Assembly (NCBI RefSeq): GCF_028751035.1
Contig: NZ_CP063533.1
Coordinates: 496,001-560,000 of the forward strand
Reading direction: 5' to 3'
Origin: Helicobacter winghamensis ATCC BAA-430
GTDB taxonomy: Bacteria; Campylobacterota; Campylobacteria; Campylobacterales; Helicobacteraceae
Length of the DNA stretch: 64,000 bases
Numbering within the stretch: the stretch's first letter is position 1; each line of letters begins with the position of its first letter. This document shows, in pieces, positions 1 through 53,824 of this stretch. A model generated the notes under the pieces. It was given only the letters and a program-made list of their open reading frames with translations. It was not told the DNA's origin and did not search any database. The position numbers and the translations under genes were made by a program.

Positions 1-260
1 GTGGTTGCTGTATTGCTTCTTGTGGAACAAAGCTTATGCGTGAAGACTTTGTAGGAGCAGCTGGGCTTAATCGCGTGGTTAGGTTTATGCTAGATCCACA
101 CGATGAAAGAAGTGATGCAGATTATTATGAGCTAGTGGGCGATGATAATGGTGTATTTGGCTGTATGAGCTTGCTTGCTTGCCACGATGTTTGCCCAAAA
201 AACCTGCCATTACAAAGTAAAATCGCTTATTTGCGCCGCAAAATGGCAGTCGTCAAATAA
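1..260 (+). CDS. frdB: Fumarate reductase iron-sulfur subunit (C-terminal part)
   Basis: This is the last 85 codons of a gene cut by the left edge; the frame runs from base 3. The product is the FeS subunit of quinol:fumarate reductase, which passes electrons from menaquinol through the membrane anchor to the FrdA flavoprotein during fumarate respiration. The visible start reads [10 protein letters not shown], the CxxC...C...CP ferredoxin-like signature, and a second cysteine group ([14 protein letters not shown]) supplies the remaining ligands of the C-terminal 3Fe-4S/4Fe-4S domain. The end (LRRKMAVVK) is a usual length for the epsilon-proteobacterial FrdB. It appears to be the last gene of its operon, since a strong hairpin follows within 10 bases. 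Confidence 0.93.
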
Positions 261-269
261 TAAAATAAA

Positions 270-310
270 GAATCCCTTTTTGGGATTCAAAGATAAGATT
301 TATCTTTTTT
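270..310 (+). terminator. Tandem intrinsic terminator after frdB
   Basis: Two hairpins lie back to back. The first has a 7-bp stem, GAATCCC (270-276) and GGGATTC (282-288), around a T5 loop. The second pairs AAAGATAA (289-296) with TTATCTTT (300-307) and runs into a T tract. Together they separate frdB from the tRNA gene. The first hairpin is repeated almost exactly behind the porin gene at 42944-42964. Confidence 0.8.
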
Positions 311-313
311 AGT

Positions 314-319
314 TATAAT
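314..319 (+). promoter_or_regulatory. -10 element of the tRNA-Ser promoter
   Basis: A perfect TATAAT lies 11 bases before the first tRNA base, right for a start a few bases upstream of the mature 5' end. It overlaps the T run of the preceding terminator, so the tRNA is its own transcription unit. No clear -35 box is seen, as is normal for sigma-70 promoters in this group. Confidence 0.6.
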
Positions 320-330
320 TCCCTTTTCTT

Positions 331-418
331 AGAGAGGTGTCCGAGTGGTTGAAGGAGCACGCCTGGAACGCGTGTAAGGTGCAAGTCTTCGAGGGTTCGA
401 ATCCCTTCCTCTCTGCCA
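331..418 (+). tRNA. tRNA-Ser (anticodon GGA)
   Basis: A complete class II tRNA of 88 bases with the CCA end encoded. The acceptor stem AGAGAGG (331-337) pairs with CCTCTCT (408-414), followed by discriminator G and CCA. The anticodon loop CTGGAAC (363-369) sits between CACGC and GCGTG and gives anticodon GGA at 365-367, reading UCC and UCU. The long variable arm typical of tRNA-Ser precedes the T arm with GTTCGAATC. Confidence 0.96.
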
Positions 419-446
419 GAATTTTAAACTTTTTAATTCTTTATTA
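418..446 (+). terminator. Weak terminator after tRNA-Ser
   Basis: AGAATT (418-423) can pair with AATTCT (435-440) and is followed by a short T-rich run. The stem is AT-only, so the prediction is weak. Confidence 0.35.
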
Positions 447-738
447 CAATTACCACTTATTTTTAAACACATCTCTTACAACCTTTCATATTGTTATTTT
501 TTAAATTCGTTACCAAATGTAACTTCTAAATTAAATTTATAAAATATACTTAATCTTTTTATAAAACTTAATAAATCCCTATAATATGGAATTTATTTTT
601 ATATTTTTCTTTACATAATAAAAATGATTTTTATTTCATTTAAAAAATAGTAACAATATCACTTAAAATTTAAAAGAATTTATTATAAAATGGCAAGGTT
701 TAAAATCAAAATCACACTTCAAACAAAGGAGAAAAATA
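447..738. other. AT-rich intergenic region upstream of the autotransporter
   Basis: Nearly 300 bases without a credible ORF. It is very AT-rich with many A and T runs, as expected for a regulated promoter region. Two -10-like hexamers on the plus strand could serve the autotransporter: TATAAT at 580-585 and TATAAA at 684-689. A good ribosome binding site (AAGGAG, about 727-732) precedes the ATG at 739. No inverted repeat long enough to call an operator was seen. Confidence 0.45.
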
Positions 739-3700
739 ATGGAAAAAACATTGAATAATCATTCTAATATGATTGATATTCCTGCGGGGGGGGGGGCATT
801 TAAGAGATATTTAGCTCCATTTACTAGCAAGGCAATTTATTATAGCGTTCTTGCAACTTCACTTTCTACTTTTATCTTTCACTCGCAAGCTTATGCACAA
901 TCAAATGATGAAAAATCTGTTCCACAAATTATTGCTTCAAATATTAAAAATCCTTCAGCAAGATCTAGTGCTAATCAATTGCAAACTAGCAATACAATTA
1001 AGACTGGAGTTCAAGTTGGTAGTCAATTTCACGATACTAGCGCTGGTGGGAGTGTAGATTTAACAGGGAAAACACAGGTTGATAATCTAACACTTAGTCA
1101 TCAGGGGATTGATATTGAGAAATACAATAATCAAAATCAAAAACCAACAAGATTATTTACAACAACAGAAATGAAATTTAATAATCTTAAAATAGCAAAT
1201 CTTACTTCTAATGGAGATGCAGGGTTTGGGTTTGTAATTTCACCAGATAAGGATTGGCTAAACATAATAACAAAGTTTATTGAATACAGCAATGTTGCAC
1301 ATTTTCATTTGTTTAAGCTTAAGGGTGATTCTTTAACTATTGGTAAGATTGAAAATAAACAGCATTTGGAGATTGAAGCGGACACTTTAAATATCAACAA
1401 AGGCATAACAACTGATTATGGCTCCCTTAAAATTAAATTTAAAGAAGGAATAATTAATGGAAAAATAGGATTTTATGGTGTTAGTAATCCTATTTTTGAC
1501 ATAGCGAGTAATGGTAATGGTCGAAAAAGTTTTGCAACAGATGATCTTTATATTGAAACTACCAATGGAACAATAGCAGCAGATATTAGCACCAAAGGGG
1601 CAAGTCGCGCAAAAATATTTTTAAATGGTGGAGGGAAAATCACAGGAAATATAACTCTTGAAGATGATACACAAAATATGGAAATTAAAATAGAAAAAGA
1701 TAGTGGATCTCTTTTAGGTGCAAGTACAAGTTGGTATGATTCTTTTTTTCATATCATTTCAGACAATGGAAAAATAGAAGGCGATATAACTATAAAGGGG
1801 GGAGATAAAGAGATTGTTGATGCATACAGAAAACATTACAACAGAAATAGTTTAGGATTTTATTTAATAGGTGATAAAGCAGAAATGAGTGGAAATATTT
1901 ATGTGCAAAATCAGCTAGCTAGTCTGAGTTTTCTATCACTTGCAGGAAATGCTAAGATGACAGGAGATATTAAAGTTGGTGAAAAAGATCACTTTAGTAT
2001 CTATAATGACAGATATTTCCCTGATGGAATAGGGCTTGACTATGGCACTAACAACCTAGTCTCTGGAAAGATTACAAATAGGGGGTATTTGGATGTTAGT
2101 GGTCAAACCGAGCAAGGATTGACTATCCAACAAACCATTGACAACATTGGAGGAACTCTTGCTGTAAGGAATGTTAATTGGGATGGAGATAAAAATATAA
2201 ACGGCATTAAATTTCTACGTGGAGGAAAAGATGGCAATGTTGGCACTGATGCACACTTTAAAAACATAAATGGTGGAAAAATAGCAATTGACGGCTGGGA
2301 TTTTAGAGAAAAAGAGGGTAATGGTAGAATTGTAATAGATACAGGAAATGGTGGGAATGACGGCACAAGAGAGCAGAATTTAAATAAAGTAGCTTTTGGC
2401 TCATATTTTGATGTTAATGGTAACATTATTCGCTCAACACAATGGGTAGATGGTAAAGAGATTCCTAGAACCATCACCCTCTTTGGCGATGATAAAATCT
2501 TCGCTAAAGGCTCTTATGTCCAATACCTTGTTTTAACCCCTGAAGAAGAAAAGGATCTTAAAGATGGAAAAATCAGTATCTATGATAAAGACGGCAGACA
2601 TAATGTAGCAGGACATTTTATTGAAGGGGGAGCAGGAGCTAATGGAGAAAGTAACTTTGCAACCTTACTCCATGAAGGAAAAGTCATTAAACTTAGTGTT
2701 GGTGGTGGAGATACTATTGCACCTGTTGTTCAAGCAGATGGTTTAATTGGTGAATTAAAAGTTAATGATGATACTCCCGGCTCCACTATTGGTTCTAATC
2801 AAATTAATGCACTAAATACTAATATGACACAAACCTTTAACACCCTTAAAGAAATCTCTACTAAAACTTTTAGAACAGAGCATACTAATCTCTCAAGCTA
2901 TAATACTCTAAAAGAACAAGTAGCTTATGCTCTTTATAATCATTCTAAAAATGCTTCAAAGAATAATTCTTTAGATAACAATCCTACAAACAAGAATCTT
3001 TCTAGTAATAATTTAAAAAATCATACCAATAATAATCTCTTGAGTTATAATGCAAAGAATTCTTTAAATGATAATATAAATCTATTGGATAATACTAGTA
3101 ACCCAGGTAATACAAATATTGCTAGTAATGTAAGTAATATAAATGCTTTGACAAATCCTGCAAGCAACACTTCAGGGAATAACACTTTAAGCAATGTTTC
3201 AAATAACACTAACTTAGAAGCTTATGCCACAGATGAACAAATTACTACTTATGCTACTTATGCACAAGCTGGTGCATCTGATGCTTTACTCTATGATGAA
3301 ATCAATAAAGGCTATACAGATTTAGATCTCTTAAGAGCCTTAGATGATATTTTTATTAAGCAAAATAAAAAAGAAAGTGATCTTTATACTTATGCAGTGC
3401 CTTATTATAATTACATTAAAGATAAATCTTTAGGATTAGGCACCACAAAAACAAATAGTTATGGATTGCTAGCTGGAGGACAATTAAATTCTAATTATGG
3501 AGTTTATGGCTTTTATATTAATTTAGAAAACTCTAAGAGAGAAAACAACACAACAAGCACAGATACAGATAGCACAAGTTATTTAGCAGGATTAACTTAT
3601 TACAATGCCTTCCATAGATTTTCTAATAAAGAACTCTATGTTAGTCTTAATACAATGCTAGGAACTACAAAGAGTGATGTCTCTATGATAGATAGTGATT

Positions 3701-4206
3701 CTTATAAAGATGATTTTGACTTTGATTCATTAAATTATGGAGCAGAACTAAGAGCTGGAGTTAATATTTATAATGTCTTAACTAATAGTTATTGGACACC
3801 AGAGTTAGGTTTAATCTATACAGGAATGGCAGTAGATTCTTATGAGATTAAACATACAAAGCTTACAGAATATTATGATAAAACAACAATTAATCTCTTA
3901 GAAGGGGTTGCAGGATTAAGATTCCATCACGCTTATAATCAAACTACACGCTTTAATGCAGCACTAGGAGCTAAGTTTAGACTCTATGATGATGCAAAAA
4001 GTCAAATGAAAATTGCAGGAGAGACATTAGCAAATCCTTTGTTTGCTACAAGAGATATTAAACTTCCAGATACTTCTTATTATGTGCAATTTGGTCTTGT
4101 TAAACTTCTAGGAGATAATGTAGAGTTAAGTCTAAACTATCAAGGAAACTTTGCAAAAGATATTCAAGGACATACTGCCTTTGCTAGAATTGGATATTGG
4201 TGGTAA
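739..4206 (+). CDS. Autotransporter with poly-G tract, type V secretion
   Basis: An 1155-residue type Va autotransporter. Residues 1-20 contain Ala-Gly-Gly-Gly-Ala coded by an 11-G run, followed by a long signal peptide whose hydrophobic core ends near AYA-Q at residues 51-54. Residues about 60-720 are a passenger rich in short Gly/Asn turns such as GKIEGDITI, GKITGNITL and AKMTGDIKV, the pattern of a parallel beta helix. Residues about 730-830 form an Asn/Ser-rich linker. About 275 residues from 880 on alternate aromatic and polar strands and end in the aromatic pair WW, as expected for the translocating beta barrel. No catalytic motif is evident in the passenger, so an adhesin or surface role is inference. 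The cytochrome gene begins 9 bases downstream. Confidence 0.88.
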   Translation: MEKTLNNHSNMIDIPAGGGAFKRYLAPFTSKAIYYSVLATSLSTFIFHSQAYAQSNDEKSVPQIIASNIKNPSARSSANQLQTSNTIKTGVQVGSQFHDTSAGGSVDLTGKTQVDNLTLSHQGIDIEKYNNQNQKPTRLFTTTEMKFNNLKIANLTSNGDAGFGFVISPDKDWLNIITKFIEYSNVAHFHLFKLKGDSLTIGKIENKQHLEIEADTLNINKGITTDYGSLKIKFKEGIINGKIGFYGVSNPIFDIASNGNGRKSFATDDLYIETTNGTIAADISTKGASRAKIFLNGGGKITGNITLEDDTQNMEIKIEKDSGSLLGASTSWYDSFFHIISDNGKIEGDITIKGGDKEIVDAYRKHYNRNSLGFYLIGDKAEMSGNIYVQNQLASLSFLSLAGNAKMTGDIKVGEKDHFSIYNDRYFPDGIGLDYGTNNLVSGKITNRGYLDVSGQTEQGLTIQQTIDNIGGTLAVRNVNWDGDKNINGIKFLRGGKDGNVGTDAHFKNINGGKIAIDGWDFREKEGNGRIVIDTGNGGNDGTREQNLNKVAFGSYFDVNGNIIRSTQWVDGKEIPRTITLFGDDKIFAKGSYVQYLVLTPEEEKDLKDGKISIYDKDGRHNVAGHFIEGGAGANGESNFATLLHEGKVIKLSVGGGDTIAPVVQADGLIGELKVNDDTPGSTIGSNQINALNTNMTQTFNTLKEISTKTFRTEHTNLSSYNTLKEQVAYALYNHSKNASKNNSLDNNPTNKNLSSNNLKNHTNNNLLSYNAKNSLNDNINLLDNTSNPGNTNIASNVSNINALTNPASNTSGNNTLSNVSNNTNLEAYATDEQITTYATYAQAGASDALLYDEINKGYTDLDLLRALDDIFIKQNKKESDLYTYAVPYYNYIKDKSLGLGTTKTNSYGLLAGGQLNSNYGVYGFYINLENSKRENNTTSTDTDSTSYLAGLTYYNAFHRFSNKELYVSLNTMLGTTKSDVSMIDSDSYKDDFDFDSLNYGAELRAGVNIYNVLTNSYWTPELGLIYTGMAVDSYEIKHTKLTEYYDKTTINLLEGVAGLRFHHAYNQTTRFNAALGAKFRLYDDAKSQMKIAGETLANPLFATRDIKLPDTSYYVQFGLVKLLGDNVELSLNYQGNFAKDIQGHTAFARIGYWW
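786..796 (+). repeat. Homopolymeric G11 tract inside the autotransporter start
   Basis: Eleven consecutive G lie 47 bases inside the coding sequence, before the signal peptide. At this length the reading frame from the ATG at 739 is open through 4206, so the sequenced copy is in the ON state. Gain or loss of one or two G would stop translation early. Slipped-strand changes of such tracts are the classic phase-variation switch in Helicobacter and Campylobacter surface genes. Confidence 0.9.
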
Positions 4207-4215
4207 GGAGAGAAA

Positions 4216-4731
4216 ATGCAAAGAATAATACTAACTTTACAACAAGAGAAACAAATAAAACAAAACAAAAGTCTAAGCTATCAAATACAGCAGGCTTTAC
4301 AACAAAATAAACAAAGCAAACAACAAATAAAACAAGTTAAACAAATCAACAAACAAAACAAAAAGACTTCCTATGAAGTCTTTAAAACAACACTAACTTC
4401 TTTTTTAGGATTATGTTTATTAGGAAGTTTAAATCTTGCACAAGCAAAAGACAATTTTAATCCTAGTAAAGAATATAAACAAAATTGTTCTATCTGTCAT
4501 GGAGCAAATGGATTAAAAGCTCCACCTGGAGGTAGAGAAACACAACTTATTGGTGCAATGCTAAAAGATTATGTGTATCAAAGACTTATTGATTATGCAA
4601 GTGATAAAGGAGGAACACCGGGAAATAACTTTATTATGTTTGCAGTAATGGATGAATACCAATACACTAAAGAAGAAATCAAACAACTAGCAGAGTATAT
4701 TACAGATTTAGGGCATAAGGAGATGGAGTAA
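4216..4731 (+). CDS. Class I c-type cytochrome with Gln/Lys-rich leader
   Basis: A small haem protein, presumably periplasmic electron carrier or sensor. The haem-binding motif CSICH is at residues 91-95, followed by HGANG and, near the end, a Met in an FAVMDEY context that could be the sixth ligand; the last helix KEEIKQLAEYI is typical of cytochrome c. A hydrophobic signal segment lies at residues 58-77 (ending LAQA). Before it comes an unusual 50-residue stretch with 16 Gln and 10 Lys and almost no acid residues. There is no alternative ATG, and a strong Shine-Dalgarno (TAAGGAG) overlaps the stop of the autotransporter, so the long start seems real. Tight spacing suggests co-transcription and perhaps co-regulation with the phase-variable autotransporter. 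Confidence 0.75.
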   Translation: MQRIILTLQQEKQIKQNKSLSYQIQQALQQNKQSKQQIKQVKQINKQNKKTSYEVFKTTLTSFLGLCLLGSLNLAQAKDNFNPSKEYKQNCSICHGANGLKAPPGGRETQLIGAMLKDYVYQRLIDYASDKGGTPGNNFIMFAVMDEYQYTKEEIKQLAEYITDLGHKEME

Positions 4732-4752
4732 AAATAAGTTTTAGAAGCTTCT

Positions 4753-5394
4753 TTAAGGGAGTTTTATAACTCCCATTCCTTGAAGCCCCGTAACAATCAT
4801 TTGGATTCCAACTGCCACGATGAAGATTAATGAAATGCGTGAAAGAACGAAAAGCACTAAGTGCCCTAAAATTTTTTCAATCATAGCAGAAAAATAAAAT
4901 AAAATTAGTAAAAACACAAATGCTGTAATCACTGCTCCAGCTGCAATAAGCATATTGCTTTTCTCAGCAATAATAATCACCGTAGATAAAGTTCCCGGTC
5001 CTACAAGCATAGGAAATGCCATAGGAATAACGCTATGTTTTAAAAGCTCGCTAAATTCTAAATCTTTGTAGTTAGAAAAATCTTGCTGTGTTTGAGAAAA
5101 AAGTAAGTTTTTTAAACTCATTACGCCAATGACTAAACCACCTGCTACACGCAAACTATCTAAATTAACGCGAAAAAGATATTGCATAATAAAAGAACCA
5201 CTAAATAAAAAAAGCAAAACAATCAAAAACGCCACCCATAAAATATTACGAAAAAGCTTTTGGCGTAGGCGAATGGGAACTTGTTCTGTCATTGCAATAA
5301 ATAAGGGGAGATTGCCAAAAGGGTTTAAAACGGCAATGATTGTAACAGTTGCCACACCAATGATATAGGTAACAGATTCTATGTTTTCAAACAT
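4753..5394 (-). CDS. MarC-family integral membrane protein
   Basis: A 213-residue inner membrane protein with about six hydrophobic segments. The family marks are NPFGNLPLF near residue 25 and PMAFPMLVGPGT in the middle, both typical of the MarC/UPF0056 family. Its substrate is unknown; the old link with multiple antibiotic resistance in E. coli has not held up for the family, so no resistance role is claimed. It stands alone on the minus strand, convergent with the cytochrome gene, with a 71-base gap to the ATPase gene upstream. Confidence 0.88.
   Translation of the reverse strand: MFENIESVTYIIGVATVTIIAVLNPFGNLPLFIAMTEQVPIRLRQKLFRNILWVAFLIVLLFLFSGSFIMQYLFRVNLDSLRVAGGLVIGVMSLKNLLFSQTQQDFSNYKDLEFSELLKHSVIPMAFPMLVGPGTLSTVIIIAEKSNMLIAAGAVITAFVFLLILFYFSAMIEKILGHLVLFVLSRISLIFIVAVGIQMIVTGLQGMGVIKLP
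4757..4774. terminator. Inverted repeat at the convergent cytochrome/marC junction
   Basis: GGGAGTT (4757-4763) and AACTCCC (4768-4774) form a perfect 7-bp stem with a 4-base loop. It overlaps the last codons of the minus-strand marC gene. Neither side is followed by a clear T run, so it is only a possible bidirectional terminator. Confidence 0.35.
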
Positions 5395-5465
5395 TTTGCA
5401 CCTTTAAAAGTAATTTTGGATTCTAGCATTTATGTGAAAAATTACGCAAGTGTTTTTTGGATAAA

Positions 5466-6536
5466 CTACAAATTGAAATTTAAAAGATTGGAATCTAAAA
5501 CACTACTTTTTGCAAACTCTACAAAGGGAATAATAAAATAAGGCATACCTAAATGCTCACCTTGTTTGCTTTCATTTAAAGAAAGGATTAATAAAAAATC
5601 GCAAAATTCCCTTTCTTTGCCAAGTTTATTTAAGCGCATTTCTAGCGTTTGTGTGAAAGGCGCACAAAGGATTCCAAGCGATAAAGAAGGAATGTAAAAA
5701 TCAAGCTTATCAGTGTAAAAAAACTTTAGCTTAAAATGGTAAAGTAATTCTAAAAACACCATATTTTCAAAAAGTAGGTTAAAGTTGCGTTCAAATGAGA
5801 CTGCGTTTTTTAAAGTAAAATCCCAAAAATAAAGTTTTTTAGGAGCTGAAGCGTGTTCAAACTTCTCTAGCCAAAATAAGATTCCGCCTTTTTCTAAGGT
5901 TTGCGCATAAGTGTAGAATCTGTCTTTTGAGAGCTTACCTTCTTTTTTGAGCTTAGAATATACATAATAAGGCGTTACCTTTTGCCCTAAATGTAAAATG
6001 AGATTCCGTAATATCCAAAAATCTGTTGGACTAGAAGCGAGTAGTTTTAAAAACTCTCCCTTTTTTTGCTCATTTAATTGTTCAAATAAATTGCCAAATT
6101 TTAAATATTGCGTTAGGGCTTCTTCTTGTGGGATTTTGCGCATTGCTAGAAATTCTGCAAAGGTAATGGGGGGCATTTTGAGATTGTGAAATCCTTGTAA
6201 AGGGGTGCTAGAGATTACAATTAAAAAAGAAAGTTTAAAATCAAGTGGAATTAAGGGAGTGTAATTATCCAAAATCAAAATAGAAATATTTTTTTCTTTT
6301 AAAAATTGTTGAATATTTTCTAAATCCTTTAGTGGATTTAAGCGCGTGTCATTGCAGTCAATGTAGAGTTTTTTCAATGCGCTAAAATGTGGTTGATTGA
6401 AGTAGTGTAGCACAAAGTCTGTTTTGCCTATTCCATTTGCACCATAAATGCAAGTGTTGTTTTGAAGCTTTAGAATAACTTGTCTGTGGAATCGTAAATT
6501 TAATTTAGGATAGGATTCTAAGATTTTTTCAAGCAT
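5466..6536 (-). CDS. P-loop ATPase of unknown role (AAA_14/DUF4143-like)
   Basis: A 356-residue protein with a Walker A motif GANGIGKTD near residues 33-41 and a Walker B-like strand ISILILDNY near residue 90. The later part (IVISSTP, then TFAEFLAMRK) resembles the sensor region and the domain linker of archaeal-type AAA ATPases that carry a C-terminal DUF4143 nuclease-like domain. I do not recognise a specific function. It lies head to head with pyrG, with a separate promoter on each strand, and has no membrane segment. The first 20 residues and the length look complete. Family placement is moderate in confidence. Confidence 0.65.
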   Translation of the reverse strand: MLEKILESYPKLNLRFHRQVILKLQNNTCIYGANGIGKTDFVLHYFNQPHFSALKKLYIDCNDTRLNPLKDLENIQQFLKEKNISILILDNYTPLIPLDFKLSFLIVISSTPLQGFHNLKMPPITFAEFLAMRKIPQEEALTQYLKFGNLFEQLNEQKKGEFLKLLASSPTDFWILRNLILHLGQKVTPYYVYSKLKKEGKLSKDRFYTYAQTLEKGGILFWLEKFEHASAPKKLYFWDFTLKNAVSFERNFNLLFENMVFLELLYHFKLKFFYTDKLDFYIPSLSLGILCAPFTQTLEMRLNKLGKEREFCDFLLILSLNESKQGEHLGMPYFIIPFVEFAKSSVLDSNLLNFNL

Positions 6537-49399: not shown

Positions 49400-50362
49400 G
49401 TGAAGCAAATGCTGACATTTGGGCGTTATTGCAAAAGGCGTTTTGGACAAAGAGTGCGTAAGATTCCTATTGCGCTTGCTGGTTTTACTTGCCCTAATAT
49501 TGATGGAAGCGTAGCGCGTGGTGGATGTATTTTTTGTAAAAATGAAAGCTTTTCTCCAACGCTTGATAAAGAGCCTAAAGTGCGTTTGACAATGCATCCT
49601 AATATGAAAGAAAATCCGCTTTTAGATATGCAATTAAAGCAACTTCATAGCCAGTTTAAATGGCAAAGTGAGTTTCATTATAATAAGTTTGGCGTTGGTA
49701 AATATATGATTTACTTTCAGTCTTTTACGAACACTTATGCGCCTTTTGATACTCTTCAAAAACTCTATACAGAAGCGTTAAGTTTGCCAAATGTTGTAGG
49801 AATGTCTATTGGCACACGCACAGATAGTGTGGATTTAAAATTGCTTGACTTTTTAGCAGAGCTTGCACAAAGAAAAGGGCAGGAAATTTGGGTGGAATAT
49901 GGAATCCAATCTGTGTATGATGAAACTTTAAAGTTTATTAACCGCGGACACGGCACAGAAAATATGGAGTTTTGTATTACAGAGAGCAAAAAGCGGGGAT
50001 TAAAAACTTGTTCACATATTATCTATGGGTTACCAAATGAAACAAAAGAGATGATGCTTTATAGCCTAAAAACTGTGCTTGATTGGGGAAGCGATGGGAT
50101 TAAAGTGCATCCGCTTTATATTATTGAAAAAACTTTGCTGGCAAATATGTATGAAAAGGGAGAGTATAAACCTATTACGCTTAATGATTATATTGATTTA
50201 ATTGTGGAATCATTAAAGATGATTCCACAAAGCGTTGTGATGCATAGGGTGAGTGCTGGTGTGCGTAATGATACTTTGCTTGCTCCTAAATGGTGTTTTG
50301 ATAAAAATATCCAAATGCGTGCAATCCGTGATGCACTAAGGGAAGCTAGAATAGAGTATTAA
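49400..50362 (+). CDS. Radical SAM protein, YhcC/TIGR01212 type
   Basis: A 320-residue radical SAM enzyme. The cluster motif lies in FTCPNIDGSVARGGCIFCKNESFSP, the unusual spacing CX13CX2C that marks the YhcC/TIGR01212 group; YFQSFTNTYAPFD, MSIGTRTDSVD and GIKVHPLYIIEKT are further family signatures. The substrate is not established; tRNA modification has been discussed for the relatives. GTG start with AAGGA 7 bases before it, just after purF, so the two are likely co-transcribed. Confidence 0.9.
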   Translation: MKQMLTFGRYCKRRFGQRVRKIPIALAGFTCPNIDGSVARGGCIFCKNESFSPTLDKEPKVRLTMHPNMKENPLLDMQLKQLHSQFKWQSEFHYNKFGVGKYMIYFQSFTNTYAPFDTLQKLYTEALSLPNVVGMSIGTRTDSVDLKLLDFLAELAQRKGQEIWVEYGIQSVYDETLKFINRGHGTENMEFCITESKKRGLKTCSHIIYGLPNETKEMMLYSLKTVLDWGSDGIKVHPLYIIEKTLLANMYEKGEYKPITLNDYIDLIVESLKMIPQSVVMHRVSAGVRNDTLLAPKWCFDKNIQMRAIRDALREARIEY

Positions 50363-50403
50363 AAGTTAGAATCGGAATTTAAAATTAATAAAAGTAAAAT
50401 TTG

Positions 50404-50417
50404 GGAATACTTTTTGC
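50404..50417 (+). promoter_or_regulatory. Candidate sigma-54 (RpoN) promoter
   Basis: GG at 50404-50405 and GC at 50416-50417 have exactly 10 bases between them, within TTGGGAATACTTTTTGCTT. The -12 part TTTGCTT is good, the -24 part (GGGAAT for TGGCAC) is moderate. It is 61 bases before the ATG of the EF-hand gene, in the only gap between it and the radical SAM gene. In this group sigma-54 serves mostly flagellar middle genes. Confidence 0.5.
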
Positions 50418-50478
50418 TTGTAGAATACTAAAGGAATTGCTTAAGTTTAAGGATAAAATCTAAATTTAAGGATCACAA

Positions 50479-51816
50479 ATGTCGTATTGGTATTCTAAAG
50501 CAACAGGCGTTCAGTCCTATGTGCAAGGTGTAAATTATGGCGCATTGATGCAAGATGCGTTAAATCCAAAAAATAAAAGTGAAGAGAATGAAAGACTTAG
50601 TATAAGCTCTTCACAAGAGGATTATTTTAAAAAGCAACAAATGATTAAAGAGGCAATGCAACAACTTCAAAATAATGGTTATGTTGAACCAAAGATTGCC
50701 AAAGAAGTTGATGTAGAAGCTTTAAAAGAGAGTTTGCAAAAAGCAAATAATGGCGAATCATCAGGCATTGAAATGCTAGGAAGTGCAGAATCTAGTGAGG
50801 CAAAAAAGCAAAGTCTAATGTCTGCAAAAAATGAAGCATTAAAAGAATCAACGCTAGCTTCTGCGATTGATATTGAAAATAAAATGCAAAATCAACCACA
50901 AAATGCTTTAGATAAAGAAAAACAAGAGCTAGAAGCTCAAAAAAAGATGAAAGAAAATATTTTACAAAGCGTAGAAAATGATACTTTAGTTAAAAGAGGA
51001 AGCAAAAAAGACGGAATCTTAGATAAAGCTATTGTTCAAACAAATTCTAAAGCCCCAAGTGATATTAGTGAAGAAGTTAAAGAGGCGTATAATCCTTTAG
51101 AAATTACAGAAAAAAGCGACAAATCTATAAAGCAAGCGGTGGAATTTACCGATGAAGTGAGCGGTAAAAAGATAAGCGTGCCGCTAAGTGATGAAAATGC
51201 ACAAAAACTTATTGAAAAATTTGGCTCATTAGAAGAAGCAAGTGATTATGTGAAGGGCTTTTATTATGATGCGGCTTATAAAATGGGGTATTTAAGTGGT
51301 GATAGCGATGGTGATGGCAAAATTAGCCTAGAAGAGGGCGTGCATTTAAAGAGTCTTGTTAGCTTGCGTGATGGGAGTTATTATTCTATTGCTGATAGGC
51401 TTGGTGGAGAGTTGGAATCGCAAAAGAAGTTTTTAGAACAAGTTGGATTTATTGATAATATTAGTGATTTTATTAACCATTCTATCGCACAAGATAGTGA
51501 CTTTGATGGAGCGATTACTTTAAACGAAATGATGGGTGATGATGGCAAGGCGGTGTTGTTTAAGGTGGGCGAGCAAGCAAGCGGTAATGTTGAAATGTTT
51601 GTGATTTGGAAGTTTAACTTTGATTTAACACAAGAATCTTTGGGGGATACCTTGTTAAATCTTGGGGCAAAAGATGAAGCAAAAGTAGAAGTTGCAGACA
51701 AAAAAGACATAAAAGAATACGCTGATAAAAATTATTTAGAGGCTTTAGGTGAGATTGAACGCGCAAATGTTTTAAAAAGTGAAGCGCTGTTAAAAAATAT
51801 AATAGAGAGTGCTTAG
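50479..51816 (+). CDS. EF-hand protein of unknown function
   Basis: A 445-residue soluble protein without signal or membrane segment. Residues about 40-230 are low-complexity, Lys/Glu/Gln/Ser-rich and probably helical or disordered. Two canonical calcium loops follow: DSDGDGKISLEE at residues 275-286 and DSDFDGAITLNE at 339-350, each with Asp at 1, 3 and 5, Gly at 6, Ile at 8 and Glu at 12. The N-terminal SYWYSKATGVQSYVQGVNYG and the folded C-terminal part around the EF hands look conserved. Start supported by AAGGA ahead of ATG. A candidate sigma-54 promoter upstream suggests flagellum-linked expression. Confidence 0.72.
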   Translation: MSYWYSKATGVQSYVQGVNYGALMQDALNPKNKSEENERLSISSSQEDYFKKQQMIKEAMQQLQNNGYVEPKIAKEVDVEALKESLQKANNGESSGIEMLGSAESSEAKKQSLMSAKNEALKESTLASAIDIENKMQNQPQNALDKEKQELEAQKKMKENILQSVENDTLVKRGSKKDGILDKAIVQTNSKAPSDISEEVKEAYNPLEITEKSDKSIKQAVEFTDEVSGKKISVPLSDENAQKLIEKFGSLEEASDYVKGFYYDAAYKMGYLSGDSDGDGKISLEEGVHLKSLVSLRDGSYYSIADRLGGELESQKKFLEQVGFIDNISDFINHSIAQDSDFDGAITLNEMMGDDGKAVLFKVGEQASGNVEMFVIWKFNFDLTQESLGDTLLNLGAKDEAKVEVADKKDIKEYADKNYLEALGEIERANVLKSEALLKNIIESA

Positions 51817-51903
51817 GTGGAGCTAAAATCACTACTGGTTGAAATTATATTTTTTGGAGTGATAATGCTAGCACTTCTCTGGTATCGGCGCAGACTTAAA
51901 TAA
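51817..51903 (+). CDS. 28-residue membrane microprotein
   Basis: A GTG directly after the TAG of the EF-hand gene opens a 28-codon frame ending at TAA 51901-51903. It codes for a short start (MELKSLLVE), one hydrophobic helix (IIFFGVIMLALLWY) and a basic end (RRRLK), the layout of a small inner membrane protein with its C-terminus inside. GAGAG stands about 6 bases before the GTG. Too short for family recognition; coding status is inferred from composition and placement. Confidence 0.4.
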   Translation: MELKSLLVEIIFFGVIMLALLWYRRRLK

Positions 51904-51954: not shown

Positions 51955-52605
51955 TTGCAAACACTTCATCAAGCCTTGCTTTTAAAAAAACTTTATTTAT
52001 TACAATCTTGTGGCTTCTCTTATTGTGAGCCACAATTTTTAGCACCCACGCAACAGAGATTCCAAAGTCAAAATTCAAGGGATTTAAAAACCATTGTAGA
52101 ATCCTGCAAACTCTGTGCGCAAAAATCTTCAGAACCAAATTTTGGCTTGTGTAATAAAAATTCTAAGCTAGTTTTTGTTACACTTTCTCCTTTGTTTGAT
52201 GGGCAAATGCGCTTTGGCTCTAAGGCTTCTATAATGCTAAAAAATATTATTGAAGGTGTTTTTAAGCTCTCTTTGCAAGAAGTTTCTATTCTATCCTTGC
52301 TAAAATGTCAGATTCCAAAGGCAAATGAGCAAGCAAGTGTGGAATCGTGTATGGGATATTTTTTGAAGCAATTAGAATTTTGTAGTGCTAAAACGCTTGT
52401 AATTTTTGGAGCGGAAGCATATAGCTATTTAACAAAAGATAATAAGAGTTATGAAAGTGTGCAAGGAAAACTTTTAAAATGGAATCATTGCGCAGTGTTT
52501 CCGACATTTGCTTTATCGCTCCTTATACGCCAGCCGGAATTAAAAATTAATGCACATAGGGAATTTCTAGAATTAAAACGCTTAATGGGAGAGCAAAATG
52601 TTTAA
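51955..52605 (+). CDS. Uracil-DNA glycosylase family 4/5-like protein
   Basis: A UDG-superfamily protein of about 216 residues. VESCKLCAQKSS and later LLKCQIPKANEQASVESCMGYFLKQLEFC supply four cysteines in the places that bind the 4Fe-4S cluster in family 4 enzymes; VFVTLSPLFDGQ stands where family 4 usually has GEAPG, and LVIFGAEAYSYL and the QGKLLKWNHCAVFPTFALSLLIRQPE region follow the family order with a departed active-site motif. Enzymatic activity is thus not certain. TTG 51955 is chosen since TGAGGA precedes it closely; a TTG at 51931 would add 8 residues. The 3' end overlaps the next gene by 8 bases. Confidence 0.72.
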   Translation: MQTLHQALLLKKLYLLQSCGFSYCEPQFLAPTQQRFQSQNSRDLKTIVESCKLCAQKSSEPNFGLCNKNSKLVFVTLSPLFDGQMRFGSKASIMLKNIIEGVFKLSLQEVSILSLLKCQIPKANEQASVESCMGYFLKQLEFCSAKTLVIFGAEAYSYLTKDNKSYESVQGKLLKWNHCAVFPTFALSLLIRQPELKINAHREFLELKRLMGEQNV

Positions 52606-53824
52606 AAGGATAATTTTATGTCTAATGGTGTTGATGTATCCGCAATTTATTTTAGCTAGTGGAAAATATCTTTCGCCATTGCCCTTGCCAAGTGCAGAGG
52701 TTTTAAATCTCGAGAGTAGAAGTTGTAGCACAAGTTGTTTAAGGAATTATTTAGAGAATGGGCAAGTCTTTTCTTTTATTGCAAATATTAATAAAGAAAA
52801 TCAAAATGAAGCGATTTTAACGGAGTTAAACACGCTTTTAAGTGCGTTAGAAATCTCTGAGATTCCTTATTTTGTGGGCACACAAAAGCCATTTTTTAGT
52901 GTTGCTTTAATGTTTCCGCGTAAAAGCATAGGACGCTATTCTAGCACAACTACAAATGTAATTTTAAGTTATCTTTTGAGTCAAAAAGGGAGATTTAATT
53001 TTGAAATTTTTGATTCTAAAACAGAATCGCTAGAAGATATGCAGGCGGTCTTGCAAGATATTTATGCTAAGGGTTATCGCCAAGTAATTGCAGTAGTAAC
53101 GCAAGATGGCGCAAATGCAATTAATACGATAAACCCTAATATGCTTGTATTTATCCCAAGTGTGCATAAAGCACAACTACAAGAGATTAGCGCACCAAAT
53201 GTGATTTTTGGTGGGATTAGCTATGCAGAGCAGATTCAAAAACTATCAGACTTAAATCCAAGCGTGAGTGCTACAAGCTTTTATGATGGAAGCCTTGTGG
53301 GTCAGCAAATGCAGGCTTACACACAAGAGGCAAATCCAAATCTTATTTATTCGCAAAGCTTTAATTTAAAGCAGAATCCAAATTTCCATAAAGAGATAAA
53401 AAATCTAAAAAGCACATTGCGTTCTACGCGTATTTTTCTAAACACACCTGTAACAAATTCTAGTATTATTCTCTCACAACTTACTTTTAATGATATTCGT
53501 CCGCAAGCTGTGTATTCTACGCAGATTAATTACAATCCAAGCTTGCTTTCTATCACGCAAGAGAGAGATCGGGCAAATATGTATGTTGCAAACTCTATTA
53601 TGCCTCTTGATGGCTTGCTTTTAGAGAATGCAAAGTTTTTAAATGCGGACTTGGAATATAATTGGATTAATTACACTACAGCATTTGGAATTGAGTATTT
53701 TTATACAAAAAGCGTGCCCGGAGCAAAGCGGTATTTTAAAGAAAAAATACTTCATCAACAGGTGCAATATAATATTGAGATTTTAAAGCCTACAAATACG
53801 CGTTTTGCGCCTTTAAAGCCATAG
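52598..53824 (+). CDS. Periplasmic protein of unknown function
   Basis: A 408-residue secreted protein. Residues 1-21 are a signal peptide (FKRIILCLMVLMYPQFILASG). The mature part has a Cys pair (RSCSTSCLRN) and alternating alpha/beta units: VALMFPRKSIGRYSSTTTNVILSYLL, GYRQVIAVVTQDGANAINTI, VIFGGISYAEQIQKLSDLNP, SATSFYDGSLVGQQMQAY. This order suggests a type I periplasmic binding fold, like the LpoA C-domain, but no named family is recognised. Its neighbours, an LptF-type permease and metallopeptidase, point to envelope work. It overlaps the UDG gene by 8 bases. Confidence 0.6.
   Translation: MFKRIILCLMVLMYPQFILASGKYLSPLPLPSAEVLNLESRSCSTSCLRNYLENGQVFSFIANINKENQNEAILTELNTLLSALEISEIPYFVGTQKPFFSVALMFPRKSIGRYSSTTTNVILSYLLSQKGRFNFEIFDSKTESLEDMQAVLQDIYAKGYRQVIAVVTQDGANAINTINPNMLVFIPSVHKAQLQEISAPNVIFGGISYAEQIQKLSDLNPSVSATSFYDGSLVGQQMQAYTQEANPNLIYSQSFNLKQNPNFHKEIKNLKSTLRSTRIFLNTPVTNSSIILSQLTFNDIRPQAVYSTQINYNPSLLSITQERDRANMYVANSIMPLDGLLLENAKFLNADLEYNWINYTTAFGIEYFYTKSVPGAKRYFKEKILHQQVQYNIEILKPTNTRFAPLKP

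Follow-up and report, generated by a model that had tools for sequence, protein, structure and literature searches.

The 64,000-nucleotide stretch of the Helicobacter winghamensis ATCC BAA-430 genome analysed here (the window) encodes a protein with two EF-hand loops that is probably a calcium-dependent, middle-class flagellar accessory and has not been described before. Its predicted place in the RpoN flagellar regulon is roughly as secure as sequence evidence can make it, and no EF-hand member of that regulon was found in the literature searched. New here are its disordered/folded architecture, the near-absence of cysteine, a GGA-spaced leader and a coupled microprotein (Table 1). To our knowledge, calcium has no established part in flagellum building in this bacterial group. 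A conserved, RpoN-controlled EF-hand gene with a microprotein is therefore a concrete test case for calcium sensing or use at the hook stage, and Wolinella or cultured Helicobacter provide settings for asking whether calcium acts there.

Table 1. Positions in the window of the EF-hand gene, its control elements, protein regions and coupled microprotein.
Feature	Position	Strand	Remark
Sigma-54 (-24/-12) promoter element, TTTGGGAATACTTTTTGCTT	50400..50419	+	kept in orthologs
Leader, three GGA motifs at 50433-50435, 50451-50453, 50470-50472	50428..50478	+	start inferred from promoter
EF-hand protein gene	50479..51816	+	445 aa, ATG start
N-terminal region (residues 1-179), for the most part predicted disordered; helical and conserved at about 44-90	50479..51015	+	AlphaFold2 pLDDT
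Folded domain, residues 180-375	51016..51603	+	domain model pLDDT 89, pTM 0.87
EF-hand loop 1, residues 275-286, DSDGDGKISLEE	51301..51336	+	exact loop match
EF-hand loop 2, residues 339-350, DSDFDGAITLNE	51493..51528	+	exact loop match
Microprotein ORF, 28 aa, GTG start directly after EF-hand stop codon, MELKSLLVEIIFFGVIMLALLWYRRRLK	51817..51903	+	conserved in 11/14 loci

The original prediction had placed a GG-N10-GC element 61 bases before the EF-hand gene, and the element was found exactly there, with GG at 50404-50405 and GC at 50416-50417, the latter separated from the ATG by 61 bases. All 18 orthologs of the genus carry GGAAT-N5-TTGCTT at 73-84 nt upstream of the ATG, as a conserved island within otherwise diverged upstream sequence. 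The corresponding site reads TTGGCACAAAATTTGCTT before the Wolinella ortholog, TTGGCACATAAATTGCTT or TATGGAATAAAAGTTGCTT in the sister genus, and TAGGTATCTTATTTGCTT before the ortholog of an order-level metagenome-assembled genome (MAG). The promoter accompanies every ortholog examined, across four genera. Since every ortholog carries the element and the genome has few copies of it, its occurrence by chance is ruled out.

The regulon of the source genome (1.70 Mb in two contigs) was inferred from matches to the promoter pattern, which occurs 16 times in the whole genome and not once in the reversed control. Five matches are intragenic and 11, including that of the EF-hand gene, lie closely upstream of a gene. 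Six of the 10 other upstream sites precede flgE, flgI, flgH, flgL, flgF/G-type and HP1233-family genes, as assigned by profile. The remaining four precede genes of 265 aa, 161 aa and at least 498 aa and a DnaJ-domain gene; the one of at least 498 aa resembles FliK in position and make-up, although no profile matched it. Because the promoter is kept across genera, its sister sites precede hook, ring and junction genes and the genome encodes rpoN, the EF-hand gene is assigned to the RpoN flagellar regulon. Control by sigma-54 and a connection with hook and basal-body genes had both been proposed beforehand, and conservation and the genes behind the sister sites strongly support them. The EF-hand gene shares its promoter element with the RpoN-dependent middle-class flagellar genes of Campylobacterota (flgE, flgH, flgI, flgL, HP1233 family) but, unlike them, is absent from most of the order.

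The gene lies outside any flagellar cluster; its neighbours are a radical-SAM protein gene (49400-50362) on one side and a UDG-superfamily gene on the other. Orthologs were found in 18 of 19 genomes of the genus, the lone exception being a genome that is 76% complete. By the EF-hand protein, the closest named relatives are Helicobacter sp. SUG33 (87-88% identity), H. turcicus and Helicobacter sp. MIT 11-5569, followed by H. rodentium, H. pullorum and others. Beyond the genus, Wolinella, one MAG and most of a sister genus have an ortholog. Most other Campylobacterales examined have no ortholog, many flagellated ones included, and flgI is present in every genome checked. Since many flagellated relatives manage without the gene, its product is no core flagellar part. 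Adjoining the UDG-superfamily gene is a gene for a 408-aa protein with no Pfam match (52598-53824, + strand), and this pair keeps its linkage with the EF-hand gene both in Wolinella (L105) and in the sister genus (L106, L112).

The Wolinella ortholog comes from genome G136, which we take to be Wolinella succinogenes. Its reading frame is intact, an apparent internal stop having proved to lie beyond the gene, and a broken ortholog is ruled out. It shares the domain, both loops, the sigma-54 site and the linkage to the UDG-family gene with the source genome, and it differs in a shorter C terminus, in a short leader without the GGA series and in that no microprotein was seen behind it. The GGA series and the microprotein were likewise not found with the sister-genus orthologs.

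The 445-residue reading frame and its two loops stand at the positions originally proposed. Loop conservation was scored over 19 relatives and then over 14 that included Wolinella and the sister genus. In both loops, position 1 is D and position 12 is E without exception, and position 3 is D or N throughout. Position 5 is D or N except for an S in loop 2 of two relatives, one of them Wolinella, whereas positions 2, 7 and 11 vary freely. Both loops of all relatives have the ligands at positions 1, 3, 5 and 9 and the E at position 12 that define an EF-hand. As far as sequence can tell, loops and promoter element alike withstand the refutation checks proposed with the original prediction. For the loops, the question was whether homologues conserve the ligands, and every relative retains the calcium-ligand positions whereas other loop positions are variable. 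The evidence from the single sequence is modest because the Pfam EF-hand models match it below their curated cut-offs (scores of 17.5 and 16.5 bits, with cut-offs of 30 and 25.9, respectively). The loops are nevertheless judged real because the relatives show this pattern of kept ligands, which also rules out degenerate or decayed loops. Predicted calcium binding by the two loops is well supported by sequence.

Comparison with the EF-hand pair domain (Pfam EF-hand_7, PF13499; calmodulin, parvalbumin and polcalcin structures) reveals common 12-residue loops of the form D-x-D/N-x-D/N-G-x-I/L-S/T/N-x-x-E. The loops of a usual EF-hand pair start about 36 residues apart. Here they are farther apart, at 64 residues from start to start, and the domain has an additional hairpin-helix front part besides its sub-cut-off Pfam scores. 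Searches of Pfam and NCBIfam with the 445-aa protein gave no family above cut-off, and known family membership was rejected, in line with the original prediction, which had recognised no described counterpart. The protein adds an undescribed domain family to the annotation.

An AlphaFold2 model of the protein was built with 15 aligned sequences. In the full-length model, a confident block extends from about residue 181 to 360, pLDDT is below 50 for residues 1-48 and 90-178, and helices are predicted at 44-65 and 79-90. Each loop is preceded by a helix, and the helix after loop 1 has only four residues. Searches of the PDB by sequence and by fold gave no significant structure for the folded domain, with weak EF-hand matches only; Foldseek placed mostly EF-hand proteins at the top, all at a non-significant E of 0.5 or worse.

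Cysteine is absent from 22 of 23 orthologs, where about four per protein would be expected at the window background of 0.9%. FlgL, the FlgF/G-type protein and the HP1233-family protein encoded by the source genome likewise lack cysteine. FlgE, however, has three cysteines and 14 other genes of the window encode none, so that the missing cysteine is at most a hint at export. No signal peptide is evident in the protein by inspection. Together with the predicted disordered N terminus, these features make an accessory or exported protein plausible.

Two elements of the locus had been overlooked in the original prediction, whose sigma-54 and regulon part stood: a GGA-rich leader and a coupled microprotein. 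GGA motifs occur near -46 and -27 in the predicted leaders of all 18 genus members, and most have a third near -10, over the ribosome-binding site, as does the source genome (50470-50472). The mean GGA number of the genus leaders is well above the shuffled expectation, and the EF-hand gene is alone among 51 window genes in having three GGA at such spacing. The motifs are possible CsrA sites, and csrA is encoded in the source genome. The CsrA protein of C. jejuni binds to GGA motifs in the leaders of flagellar mRNAs, represses flaA via ANGGA motifs in its leader and also touches the RpoN-dependent flaB and flgI (PMC4894983). The flagellin leader controlled by CsrA-FliW in C. jejuni likewise has ANGGA motifs, one covering the ribosome-binding site (PMC4894983), whereas the leader studied here has three evenly spaced motifs without conserved hairpins. 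Folding of seven leaders gave no conserved hairpin presenting GGA and none better than shuffled sequence, and a reading based on leader hairpins was rejected for lack of a conserved fold.

The microprotein is a single hydrophobic helix with a basic C terminus, 28-30 codons long across relatives. It was found in 11 of 14 Helicobacter loci (not in L038, L041 or L042), where its start overlaps the upstream stop or lies within a few bases of it, in the arrangements GTG behind TAG, TAGTG and ATGA. Comparison of nine species pairs gave an amino-acid-changing rate lower than the silent one in eight, usually several-fold; the close pair L036/L037 is the exception. A Pfam search with the microprotein gave no family above cut-off. 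It is regarded as a real, unlisted and translationally coupled gene, and as a missed small membrane protein it is an addition to the annotation. Because it is absent from three Helicobacter loci and was not seen in Wolinella or the sister genus, the microprotein is not needed for the core function.

The reading placed first, although held at somewhat less than an even chance, is that the protein is a hook-stage accessory that is exported and folds with calcium. RpoN would transcribe the gene as a middle-class flagellar gene together with hook, ring and junction genes, and CsrA, bound at the spaced GGA motifs, would probably hold back its translation. The protein would most likely leave the cytoplasm loosely folded through the flagellar export channel. 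External calcium would then lock the EF-hand domain, yielding a hook or basal-body accessory or a released factor, and the one-helix microprotein may, in this genus, tether the protein or its translation to the inner membrane. Several lines of evidence argue for this reading: the promoter in every ortholog, with rpoN and the hook, ring and junction sister genes; the conserved ligands, disordered N terminus and folded C-terminal domain; the freedom from cysteine shared with FlgL, FlgF/G-type and HP1233-family proteins; and the leader GGA pattern, the presence of csrA and the C. jejuni precedent (PMC4894983). Against it, no recognised export signal was found in the protein, no chaperone gene was identified adjoining its gene, and the microprotein suggests a location at the inner membrane, not outside the cell. 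The CsrA part is weakened by the leader's lack of conserved hairpins, unlike C. jejuni flaA. A more specific version appears rather unlikely, namely that external calcium is the folding switch of an export substrate and thereby either powers its export or determines a step in the assembly of the hook, the genus-specific membrane microprotein and a CsrA-controlled leader tuning supply.

Ranked second, and doubtful, is a cytoplasmic or membrane-associated calcium sensor of the flagellar system that the microprotein would hold at the inner membrane. Its EF-hand domain would respond to shifts in internal calcium, and its target would be the motor, a regulator or the export gate. The conserved single-helix membrane protein coupled to the EF-hand stop codon speaks for such a sensor, and the lack of an evident signal peptide and the shared regulon are consistent with it. 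Cysteine-free orthologs are, however, more typical of exported parts, and the gaps in microprotein distribution described above also speak against a sensor of this kind.

Ranked below the sensor, and unlikely, is a released factor that would not be part of the flagellum but would use the flagellar export channel and act outside the cell like the Campylobacter Cia/Fed proteins. Its patchy distribution, disordered N terminus and missing cysteine would suit such a factor, and so would its wider family. This family shares the domain and both loops, frequently has several copies per genome and extends to other families of the order. Its members often sit behind small proteins with signal-peptide-like N termini (L100, L101, L102, L103, L121, L122), several of which, before multi-copy relatives, have a VVGG motif that recalls double-glycine leaders. 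None of the multi-copy relatives checked has a sigma-54 site like that of the EF-hand gene, and the single conserved copy per genome and its control by a hook-stage sigma factor likewise argue against release. Last, a genuine sigma-54 site on a gene without a flagellar role, with RpoN serving another function here, is very improbable: some of the 16 sites do not precede flagellar genes and five are intragenic, but six of the 10 other upstream sites precede hook, rod, ring, junction or HP1233-family genes and the site is kept across genera.

Further observations concern the wider family and the other promoter matches. The gene at L101:9080-9652 encodes a protein with the look of a C39-type peptidase and a signal peptide. 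In genome G015, the pair of a small protein and an EF-hand relative is tandemly duplicated (L100:258-1541 and 2784-4067) with identical protein sequence. The 265-aa, 161-aa and 269-aa DnaJ-domain genes (L084:1545-2339, L091:1549-2031 and L094:632-1438), which have the same sigma-54 pattern upstream, lie near C1:287887, 826577 and 1289774 of the source genome and carry no flagellar annotation; they are possible additions to the flagellar regulon.
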